Shown one piece after another: positions 43,447 to 46,521 of a stretch of DNA of 64,000 nucleotides (its first letter is position 1; the number at the start of each line of letters is the position of its first letter). The notes below the pieces were generated by a model. It had not been told where the DNA came from and ran no database searches. It was given only the letters and a program-made list of their open reading frames with translations. Source of the stretch: an uncultured Jannaschia sp. GTDB lineage: Bacteria; Pseudomonadota; Alphaproteobacteria; Rhodobacterales; Rhodobacteraceae. The stretch lies in assembly GCF_947494055.1 (NCBI RefSeq), contig NZ_CANLTR010000006.1:62001-126000 (forward strand). The letters run 5' to 3'. A program made the translations under genes and the position numbers.

Positions 43447-44737
43447 AGTCGCCGCGATCCTGTTCGGAACTTTCGGTATCCTTGTCTTCCTGCGAGTTCC
43501 CGTAGCCTTCGCACTGGGTCTCGCCGTGGTCCCCGTCTTCTTCATCGAGGAGCGGCTGACCCCCATCCTCCTGATGCGGGAAATGTTCAAGAGCTACAAC
43601 TCCTTCGTGCTGCTCGCCGTGCCTTTCTTCCTGCTGGCGGCGAACCTGATGAACTCCGCGGGGATCACCGACCGCCTCATCCGATTGGCGCGCGCCATGG
43701 TGGGGCATTTGCCGGGTGGACTCGGCCATGTGAACGTCGTCGTCTCGATGCTGTTTGCCGGCATTTCCGGCTCCTCCACCGCAGACGCGGCCGGGATCGG
43801 TTCGCTCCTCATTCCCCAGATGCGCAAGGAGGGCTACGATGCCCCTTTCGCTGTGGCCATCACCGCCTGTTCGAGCGTCATGGGCGTCATCATCCCGCCC
43901 TCGATCCTGATGGTTGTCTGGGGGGGGCTGATGTCGGTCTCCATCGGCGGGCTATTCCTCGCCGGTGTCGTGCCGGGCATTCTGATCGCCGGCTCGCAGA
44001 TGCTTACCGTTTACATTTATGCCAAACGGCGCGGCTACGCCGTTCACACGCGGTCCACCTTCGTCGAACTCATGCGGGCCCTGGCTTCGGCCACCCTCGC
44101 CCTCATGACTCCGCTCATCATTGTCGGTGGCATCGTCGGCGGCTTTTTCACACCGACCGAAGCCTCCGTCGTTGCGGTAATCTACTCCCTGATCCTCGGC
44201 GTTTTCGTCTATCGCTCGATCACCCCGCGTGCCCTGCCCGGCGTGATCTACGACAGTGCCCGCTTCGCCGCGATCACCCTCTTCTGCATCGGCACCGCTT
44301 CAGCCTTCGGCTGGTGTCTTGCCTACTTCAAGATTCCCGCAGCGCTTGTCGAACAGATCGACCAAATGGGTCTCGGCATCATCGGCATCGGCATCATGAG
44401 CGCGTTGGCCTTTCTGCTGATCGGCATGTTCATCGATGCGATCCCGGCGATCATCATCTTGGGCACCGTGCTCTACCCGGTGACGCAACATGTCGGAATG
44501 CACCCGATCCACTTCGCTATCATCGGCGTTATGAGCCTCGCGTTCGGCTTGGTCACGCCGCCCTACGGTCTTTGCCTGCTGATCGCGGCCTCGATCGGAC
44601 GGATCCGCCTGATCGACGCCCTGCGTGACGTGGCCGTAATTCTCCTTCCAATGATTGCGGTACTTCTAATCATCATTCTATTTCCGGACATTATCCTTGC
44701 CCTGCCCCGTTGGATCATGCCGACCTACGTCAACTGA
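43433..44737 (+). CDS. TRAP transporter large permease (DctM family)
   Basis: A 434-residue, roughly twelve-helix permease that uses a sodium or proton gradient. Typical stretches include NLMNSAGITDRLIRLARAMVGHLPGGLGHVNVVVSMLFAGISGSSTADAAGIG and VIIPPSILMVVWGG. ATG 43433 with GGAGGGG just upstream was chosen over the longer frame that extends into dctQ. It is the last gene of the TRAP operon; a short CCTCCG/CGGAGG hairpin with GTTTCC follows at 44840-44854. Confidence 0.9.
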   Translation: MGPAEVAAILFGTFGILVFLRVPVAFALGLAVVPVFFIEERLTPILLMREMFKSYNSFVLLAVPFFLLAANLMNSAGITDRLIRLARAMVGHLPGGLGHVNVVVSMLFAGISGSSTADAAGIGSLLIPQMRKEGYDAPFAVAITACSSVMGVIIPPSILMVVWGGLMSVSIGGLFLAGVVPGILIAGSQMLTVYIYAKRRGYAVHTRSTFVELMRALASATLALMTPLIIVGGIVGGFFTPTEASVVAVIYSLILGVFVYRSITPRALPGVIYDSARFAAITLFCIGTASAFGWCLAYFKIPAALVEQIDQMGLGIIGIGIMSALAFLLIGMFIDAIPAIIILGTVLYPVTQHVGMHPIHFAIIGVMSLAFGLVTPPYGLCLLIAASIGRIRLIDALRDVAVILLPMIAVLLIIILFPDIILALPRWIMPTYVN

Positions 44738-45111
44738 CTCCCGCCCCGGTAGGGCGCCGCATCGTTGACGAACTGGCCGGTCCATTCGGCATGGAAACTG
44801 CAAGGACGTCCGGCGGTCAGACATTACAGGAAGTGCAGACCTCCGCATCGGAGGGTTTCCTTACGGTTGGTGTTGGACGCCGAGCACGGAGCCTTCGGCT
44901 GAGCGCGGCACGTGGTGGCGACGCTGGCGGCGACCGGCGATCTTCTAAAACATTCGATTGCAGCACCTCGAACCAAGACGGAGATGACCGACGACAGAAT
45001 GGCGCACATCAAGTTGGTCGATAAGTAAACTAACGGGGACTCCTCCGCGGCCTTGTTGCACGAAGTCTGCCCGGAATTCACATTGCGCCTCCAGCAGCAT
45101 AGCTGGACGGC
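44738..45111. other. Intergenic stretch after the TRAP operon
   Basis: No gene seen. It holds a weak terminator-like hairpin (CCTCCG-CAT-CGGAGG, 44840-44854, followed by GTTTCC). The remaining sequence is AT-richer than neighbours and leads into the IS5 remnant. Confidence 0.5.
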
Positions 45112-45290
45112 ATGTCCAAGCCTGTTCCGAACCGCTACCGCACTCTGAACTAGTCTACTTACAACGCCTCGCTACGTGAGCGCGGATCTTTGACGGTCTG
45201 GTTTGACCCGTCGACGCCTTGACACGCTGCACCATCGGGCAAGCGCGGCGGGCAGACGGTCTACAGTGACGCCGCGATCCAAGCCTGTCT

Positions 45291-45335
45291 GACCCTTGCC
45301 CAGCAGGGCATCACGCGGTGATGTCCCGAGAGGGA
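45291..45335 (-). repeat. ~42-bp hairpin element, copy A (inverted)
   Basis: Read on the minus strand it carries CCTCTCGGGA, then the stem CATCAC-CGC-GTGATG, then CCCTGCTGGGCA. The stem occupies 45309-45323. It splits the transposase after QACLT. It is in the opposite orientation to copies B-D. Confidence 0.75.
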
Positions 45336-45552
45336 TCAAGGTCTTGTTCAGCCCGCCGCTGCGCCAAACGACAGGCTTCGTAGCAAGCCTTCTCAAGCTG
45401 GCAGGGTTCGACTGGCCGGTGCCCTTCGTCGGGCGATCCTTCCACTGGAAGGCTCGCTGATCCTCCTCAGTCTCGACGCTGTCTTGGCGGCAAAAGATGC
45501 TGGCCGTGCAACTGCCCTACCGCGGCAGCGGCGGCCCGCTGCACCTGCTGAT

Positions 45553-45595
45553 CCCCTCTCGGGACATTGCTGCGCAATGCCCTGCCGGGCAGTGG
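45553..45595 (+). repeat. ~42-bp hairpin element, copy B
   Basis: Flanks CCTCTCGGGA and CCTGCCGGGCAGTG surround the stem CATTGC-TGC-GCAATG (45565-45579). It splits the transposase between LLI and DRTGIK. Confidence 0.8.
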
Positions 45596-45746
45596 ACAGG
45601 ACCGGTATCAAAGCGCGCGGTGAGGGCGAATGGCACGCTCGCAAACATGGTGGGGCGCGGAGGCGGGTTTGGCGCAAGGTCCACCTTGTCGTCGACGAGA
45701 GCACGCTCGAGGTTCGTGCAGTCGAGATCACCGGCAGCGGCGTGGG

Positions 45747-45788
45747 CCCCTTTCGGCAGATTGCTTCGCAATCGCCTGTCGGGCAATG
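45747..45788 (+). repeat. ~42-bp hairpin element, copy C
   Basis: A diverged copy with flanks CCCTTTCGGCA and GCCTGTCGGGCAATG around the stem GATTGC-TTC-GCAATC (45759-45773). It splits the transposase at GSGVG / DA...VLPDLL. Confidence 0.75.
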
Positions 45789-45793
45789 GATGC

Positions 45794-45817
45794 TTCCGTG
45801 CTTCCGTGCTTCCGTGC
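45794..45817 (+). repeat. Triplicated 8-bp tandem repeat
   Basis: Three perfect copies of TTCCGTGC follow copy C and add about 16 nt within the dead transposase, probably by slippage. Confidence 0.85.
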
Positions 45818-45871
45818 TGCCGGACCTGCTTGGCCAAGTCCCTGAGAGCGAGCCGATCGCCTCGGTCACCG

Positions 45872-45913
45872 CCCCTCTCGGGATCATGCTTCGCATGACC
45901 CTGCCGGGCAGTG
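45872..45913 (+). repeat. ~42-bp hairpin element, copy D
   Basis: Flanks CCCTCTCGGGA and CCCTGCCGGGCAGTG surround the stem TCATGC-TTC-GCATGA (45884-45898). It lies after SVTA in the transposase, exactly the position of the partial copy in the 37.9-kb remnant. Confidence 0.8.
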
Positions 45914-46070
45914 GACGGCGCCGAGAAGTCATTGCCCCGCGCGCGCCGGCGCAGCGCTGTGCGCCGGCTGTCGATCTGCTCGATACGGTGGTCGATCTCG
46001 TCGTCGTACAGGACAGGACCCTCATCCTGCTCGCGGAGGATGCGGTCGAGTTCGTTCCGCGCCGTTTCCG

Positions 46071-46361
46071 TCAGGACGGCGAGAATGGTTTTGGATGCGA
46101 GGTTGCGCTTTCAAGGCCGGTCATCACTCTGGTCTCTGTACGTTGATATGCGGCGAAGACCCGGGCGGACCGGCTCATCGCTTCGCTCAGTAAGGGGGTC
46201 CGCAGTGACAGACACAGAAACGTACGGCAGCAATTTCCTGAGATGACCTTGGGTAAGCGCTTCCTGAAGTAGTAAATGCGCCCTCTTCGCAGGAGATACG
46301 GATCGGCGGCGCGGCGATGGACGGGATGGCTCGGAGGCGTGTATCCTACCGCGTATCCCAT
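46071..46361 (-). pseudogene. Truncated tyrosine integrase N terminus
   Basis: A 96-codon frame whose first 75 residues look like the N-terminal DUF6538-type region of phage/island tyrosine integrases: DPYLLRRGRIYYFRKRLPKV and FLCLSLRTPLLSEAMSRSARVFAAYQR. Full integrases run to 400 residues or more with a C-terminal R-H-R-Y domain; all of that is missing and the frame ends in unrelated sequence next to the IS5 remnant. It starts about 86 nt from the 3' end of tRNA-Gln, the standard place for an island integrase. Confidence 0.65.
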
Positions 46362-46384
46362 TGACGCGGCGGTGGGATACGCGG
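46349..46384. repeat. Perfect 12-bp inverted repeat at integrase start
   Basis: CCGCGTATCCCA and its exact reverse complement TGGGATACGCGG flank a 12-bp spacer. It spans the first codons of the integrase remnant and lies between it and tRNA-Gln, so it may be a recombination protein-binding site or an operator. Confidence 0.6.
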
Positions 46385-46446
46385 GTTTCCGACAGGAGAT
46401 CGGAACCCCTATCTTCTTGCGCTTTTCGTGTCTGATCGGAGTTCAT

Positions 46447-46521
46447 TGGCTGGGGTGGTAGGATTCGAACCTACGGTACACGGTACCAAAAACCGCTGCC
46501 TTACCACTTGGCTACACCCCA
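46447..46521 (-). tRNA. tRNA-Gln (anticodon TTG)
   Basis: A complete cloverleaf on the minus strand: acceptor TGGGGTG / CACCCCA with discriminator G and an encoded CCA, D arm with AGCCAAGTGGTAAGGCA, anticodon stem CGGT/ACCG with loop TTTTGGT giving anticodon TTG, and T arm GGTTCGAATCC. It reads CAA codons (and CAG by wobble). Its 3' end faces the accessory region. Confidence 0.95.

Follow-up and report, generated by a model that had tools for sequence, protein, structure and literature searches.

What are the short palindromes that interrupt a decayed transposase gene at this locus, and how did they come to lie there? The window (the whole 64,000-nt stretch of DNA that was analysed) holds four copies of one element in a single remnant:

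Window 45100-46000 (ends approximate), plus strand: IS5-type transposase remnant, host of the four copies, its frame broken at several places.
Window 45293-45333, minus strand: element copy 1, stem CATCAC/GTGATG, in the orientation opposite to the transposase.
Window 45555-45595, plus strand: element copy 2, stem CATTGC/GCAATG, immediately 5′ of the Asp codon in LLI-DSTGIK.
Window 45749-45789, plus strand: element copy 3, stem GATTGC/GCAATC with outer pairs GGC/GCC, 5′ of the Asp codon in GVG-DA.
Window 45874-45914, plus strand: element copy 4, stem TCATGC/GCATGA, 5′ of the Asp codon in VTA-DGAYD.

The initial annotation had described four inserts with paired stems, one of them inverted, in a dead IS5-type transposase, and this description holds: all four are in place, each arm pair is complete around a 3-nt loop, copy 1 lies on the minus and copies 2-4 on the plus strand, and the broken host frame still gives a Pfam DDE_Tnp_1 match at window 45595-45744 (E 4.5e-7). 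The flanks of the copies, said to agree, do so imperfectly, copy 3 reading CCTTTCGGCA...GCCTGTCGGGCAATGG and copy 1 ending in CTGCTGGGCAAGGG. A second hairpin, proposed for the GGGCAG segment, has its outermost pair kept in only 66% of 90 distinct 41-mers, which counts against it. Empty relatives read TTGATCGTCAGG for copy 1 (net insert 40 nt), GTGGGCGATGC for copy 3 (as though 41 nt had been inserted) and CACCGCCGACGG for copy 4 (net insert ~40 nt, at a site also occupied by other family copies); for copy 2, the net insert is 41 nt. The folding energy of single copies is unremarkable (z -0.72 to -1.73 for the four window copies), and the structural case therefore rests on covariation. A permissive Rfam search of window 44700-46500 returned no element match near the gathering score, only chance-like hits. 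The same IS5 remnant also contains a different palindrome, GGGCGATCCTTCCACTGGAAGGCTCGC, at window 45424-45469 between VP and FSTLC-like sequence, with 23 matches in the examined loci, the distinct flanks listed pointing to this one IS5 site, and a tandem 8-bp repeat, TGCTTCCG, at window 45791-45822, which has a larger number of units in the related copy on contig C29.

Across the family, the core CCTCTC...TGG measures exactly 41 nt in 122 of 140 distinct contexts, with CCTCTCGGGACATTGCTGCGCAATGCCCTGCCGGGCARTGG as the consensus element. The pattern used to collect copies from named genome records (hereafter named copies) fixed the outer letters and left the stem free, so that the conservation of outer letters in these copies is partly imposed. 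Among 49 aligned copies (33 distinct), 97.6% of stem cells are paired, as compared to 81.9% in shuffles; six of the nine stem pairs have changed on both sides, such changes amounting to 39 cells against a shuffle mean of 10.1, and shifting the partner by 1 to 3 columns lets pairing fall to 32-44%. Likewise, the six-pair stem of the 90 distinct 41-mers is paired in 94.8% of cells (shuffled mean 72.8%, maximum 76.1%). Only 17 different left arms occur, the commonest being CATTGC. Pairing is complete in 13 of 31 distinct arm pairs and the others mostly carry one mismatch, which makes the stem constraint real but not absolute.

How far does this family extend? A two-part pattern gave 12 exact matches in the genome that contains the window (hereafter the host genome) and 0 for the reversed control, and a covariance model, built from 8 sequences that match by construction, gave 68 matches there at E<=10, 62 of them with E<0.01. 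Within the genus, 8 of the 20 genomes, the host genome among them, have exact-pattern copies. In the order Rhodobacterales, the covariance model has matches in 121 of 292 genomes, from 60 of 112 genera; as scoring stopped at 21 candidates for any one genome, copy numbers are lower bounds. By comparison, a sample of the class yielded matches in 9 of 385 genomes, five from the host's family and only four from other families. A scan of named genome records found at least 112 stretches with the element, and the names in the 80 record titles listed nearly all belong to Rhodobacterales, Enemella evansiae and Roseibium aggregatum being among the exceptions. The family is confined essentially to Rhodobacterales. 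A typical element lies inside an IS5-type gene in one record (L140) titled Enemella evansiae, an actinobacterium; this record is likely to be contaminated or mislabelled. The number of genome matches, their spread over the order and the covariation together bear out the earlier proposal of a dispersed family of small palindromes in which pairing rather than stem sequence is kept. A lack of further copies, or unpaired stem changes, had been named as outcomes against this proposal, and neither of them held. Residence in IS genes across the family, the nearly constant length of 41 nt, the short target motif and the translated in-frame case go beyond the initial annotation. Our search of the open-access literature for an earlier description of the 41-nt family found none.

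Comparison with empty sites indicates where the element inserts. Over 78 such comparisons, the net insert was 41 nt in 49, 40 nt in 17, 42 nt in 5 and another length in 7; 49 inserts are in sense and 29 in antisense orientation. Net length is divisible by three in 8 of the 78, two of which (nets 57 and 48) probably involve other indels. The 55 usable comparisons comprise 44 distinct empty-site sequences, and these define a C|GAY-like target: the junction is followed by G in 36, then A in 32, then a pyrimidine in 34, and preceded by C in 27. Since GAY encodes Asp, inserts often abut an Asp codon, as in LLI-DSTGIK and VTA-DGAYD of IS5 genes and, by our reading, alike in other families. No target-site duplication was seen at the empty sites compared. 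It is improbable that these patterns go back to a few ancient insertions, with palindromes lacking mobility of their own and copied by IS since long ago. Sites common to many copies do occur (LLI-DSTGIK in IS5; an IS481-like GCTTGC-GATCGC site shared by L124, L134, L137, L149 and C72), and IS that bear inserts do multiply, as set out below. However, such a history fits poorly with 44 distinct empty sites in 55 comparisons, spread over many IS families and both orientations, or with an identical 41-mer that is found at different IS5 sites in the host genome.

Where do the copies reside? In 118 of 176 copies, the two flanks match a single ORF at another locus (74 of 112 named copies and 44 of 64 in the host genome, the 64 including two weak matches with E 0.13 and 0.14), while 47 copies have one matching flank and 11 have neither. 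At control points within the named loci, 1.5-3.5 kb from the element, both flanks match in 45 of 372 cases; on 20 stretches of the host genome chosen on larger contigs, a choice that understates IS content, none of 400 points lay in host-type ORFs and 20 matched other ORFs. The host genes span many unrelated IS families. Leading Pfam families among 52 host ORFs sampled from named loci were rve, DDE_Tnp_1, IS66, Mutator, IstB and Y2_Tnp, and of ten further representatives nine match transposase families and one is without a match. Copies without a formal two-flank match were placed by eye from translations. On this partly by-eye reading, all 62 host-genome copies lie in IS sequence and none outside, and 8 of the 112 named copies lie outside IS genes, two more (L170, L211) being unclear. 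Three of the eight are intergenic between ordinary genes (L110, L169 and L183; neighbours typed) and five sit in repeated intergenic sequence (L113, L121, L138, L155 and L178, with L155 and L178 placed by similarity only). Some copies, for example L119 and L128, occupy IS110 DNA but fall outside the transposase frame. In an IS256-type gene (L058 on contig C88; L070 on contig C78), a longer GC-rich multi-hairpin insert starting GGGGGCTCCGCCCG follows just after a 41-nt-type element.

Could this residence arise without targeting? The target motif as its cause was rejected: CGAY occurs 39.6 times per kb in sampled genome DNA versus 27.3 in host ORFs, and CGAYRR 10.8 versus 8.2 times. Being not enriched but slightly rarer in host ORFs, the motif does not explain the bias towards IS. 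Alternatively, elements might land anywhere, with selection purging copies outside IS genes and transposase genes tolerating them. Most of a bacterial genome is under selection, the host genes are dispensable, and a few intergenic copies exist (L110, L169, L183; L113, L121 and L138, likewise between ordinary genes), all of which would suit such a filter. It predicts, however, that intergenic DNA should be richer in copies than IS DNA, in conflict with the eight named copies and the absence of any host-genome copy, by reading, outside IS. Moreover, many host ORFs are otherwise open, with at least 150 open codons around the site for 20 of the 28 named sense cases and 12 of the 19 antisense ones, and the hosts are thus not merely old pseudogenes. 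We regard selection without targeting as unlikely.

Several insert-bearing IS have multiplied. Genome G206 contains seven copies of a 1.3-kb IS3-type element, 100% identical over 1291 nt in differing surroundings and all with the insert. This insert is 42 nt long and in frame with respect to an uninterrupted 81% relative, and the insert-bearing ORF of 331 residues is open and gives integrase-core matches. The relative, with Val in place of the Asp of NTDQG and a gap of one base in the first of its ORFs, is a poor enzyme source; the simplest inference from these sequences is that the G206 transposase works despite its insert. This is the one clear translated in-frame case. In G295, five practically identical IS5-type copies of 881 nt all carry the insert, and an uninterrupted near-identical copy was looked for in that genome and not found. 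Also in G295, the CATCAC stem of an element at position 1521 of locus L234 brings TGATG, an overlapping stop and start, into an IS5-type gene, where a restart in the host frame would be possible.

Might the insert be a passenger of translation? Mitochondrial byps are short mobile hairpins within coding genes that the ribosome skips, and the present family resembles them in being short mobile hairpins inside coding genes. By analogy, the ribosome might skip the 41-nt hairpin by jumping between its flanking CGGG copies. Because the jump would span CGGG to CGGG, such bypass would leave 15 added nt and the host frame at any stem length; in the consensus insert of 41 nt, the CGGG starts are indeed 26 nt apart (41-26=15), and it is between them that length variants change. 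Bypass would also account for out-of-frame inserts in multiplied IS with no uninterrupted near-identical copy (the IS5-type of G295, the IS110 of G176). We nevertheless give scarcely any credence to a translational passenger. In 29 of the 78 comparisons the insert is antisense; host intactness is similar in both orientations, with at least 60 open codons on both sides in 15 of 28 sense versus 7 of 19 antisense cases, no clear difference; copies such as TCTCATGACATTG have no matched codons; the predicted deletion scar between CGGG copies was not found in the 1.85 Mb examined; and IS can move in trans.

Multiplied IS also reveal how the stems vary. Five IS110 copies in G176, each with two elements, have bodies with 1-8 differences in 982 positions, yet the element shows 5-7 differences in 42 positions between the two copy groups: the first element reads CATTGC-TGC-GCAATG in three copies and CATCGC-ATG-GCGATG in two, whereas the second is identical in all five. 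At a site shared by L134 and L137, the core differs at 9 of 15 positions and the outer parts at 0 of 26. The core is not always the faster part; in 7 pairs with 12-17 flank differences, it differs by 4.8% as compared to 7.1% for the outer parts. As near-identical IS copies of one genome hold different paired cores, cores change as blocks. This qualifies the initial annotation's view of covarying stems: pairing is kept, but compensation site by site is not required when the whole core, arms and loop, differs between near-identical IS in G176. More generally, such exchange of paired cores between near-identical hosts warns that covariation can come from block replacement, besides stepwise compensation. 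Near-identical IS of which one carries the insert and the other lacks it were not found, the best joined-flank match being 89.6%.

Which enzyme might move such a hairpin? A Y1 transposase (RAYT or IS200/IS605) acting on REP-like elements would go with a hairpin on a conserved foot, the lack of target duplication and the strand-asymmetric ends. However, PF01797 matches are present in 31 of 292 genomes, namely 17 of the 121 that bear elements and 14 of the 171 that do not, and the consensus has no GTAG or CGTC tag at the palindrome end. Neither the comparison with REPs nor a RAYT partner, both suggested at first, thus found support, the copies being overwhelmingly intragenic, and to Y1-driven movement we attach very little weight. 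The one Y1_Tnp match of the host genome spans positions 77-121 of the 121-position model. At three places in one genome, among them G091:C1:436639-437007, the end of a Y1_Tnp match lies within 1-2 nt of an element, implying that the element cut an IS200-like gene three times in G091; there, Y1 genes are targets, not partners.

Our best reading is that the elements are mobile palindromes of very small size, a new family that dwells in IS. In full, we think it probable, with some reserve, that they are non-autonomous, essentially restricted to Rhodobacterales, and passengers inside IS; recurring within IS genes and seldom elsewhere, they have the appearance of tiny parasites of larger parasites. 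A putative enzyme acting in trans would recognise the folded hairpin, as single-stranded DNA or RNA, and deliver it to short target sites, having access to IS DNA or a preference for it. Once inside an IS, an element could be propagated by it, whether in frame or through mobilisation in trans, and conversion running between the conserved outer parts might exchange its core with those of other copies. A bolder version is conceivable, although we hold it to be doubtful: a dedicated insertion system might recognise the DNA or transcripts of IS of any family and write into them a structure-coded 41-nt hairpin with interchangeable cores, as an IS-riding hyperparasite or a host-side means of IS silencing. 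A search of the host genome for a longer, autonomous element sharing the right end gave none: each of the 22 exact motifs of that end lies in a full copy. If the passenger explanation is true, IS elements are themselves parasitised by something far smaller, and there is an insertion activity able to find transposase genes across unrelated families. Since many laboratory Rhodobacterales make it easy to read which sites are filled or empty, how many copies there are and in which hosts, the long-standing problem of the movement of tiny palindromes without genes or terminal repeats becomes testable in bacteria.

How does the family compare to known systems? REP/BIME sequences are likewise imperfect palindromes of 20-40 bp in many copies, but they are mainly extragenic and marked by a GTAG or CGTC tag (PMC3733652), and they have a partner Y1 enzyme. 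The 41-nt family shows no extragenic bias and no such tag, and a partner of this kind found no support. With MITEs it shares being small, non-autonomous and repeated, yet it is far shorter, and the terminal inverted repeats and target-site duplication that define MITEs were not seen at the empty sites compared. Closer parallels are the RPE and their Wolbachia relatives, alphaproteobacterial palindromes which likewise insert within protein-coding genes and are sometimes translated in frame. RPE measure ~100-150 bp and lie in ordinary genes, mostly in frame (PMC2229807, PMC10969869); here, in contrast, 41 nt are inserted into IS genes, with net lengths divisible by three in 8 of 78 cases, and neither a palindrome of ~100-150 bp with a conserved encoded peptide nor mostly in-frame insertion was found. 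Yeast mitochondrial GC clusters (GC42) and fungal double-hairpin elements are described as mobile, ~40 nt long or built of two hairpins, their sequence varying with structure kept, and the Allomyces elements as lacking flanking duplications (PMC4478555, PMC2800124). The present family similarly is a ~40-nt mobile hairpin of varying sequence and conserved structure, combining compensating stem changes with a short target. GC clusters, however, are mitochondrial, most are not in transposase genes and the GC42 target is AG; our copies come from a search of bacterial genomes only, with no mitochondrial location or descent. The 41-nt family belongs to a broad kind of element that includes RPE and mitochondrial GC hairpins, within which its residence in IS genes and the exchange of its paired cores are unusual.
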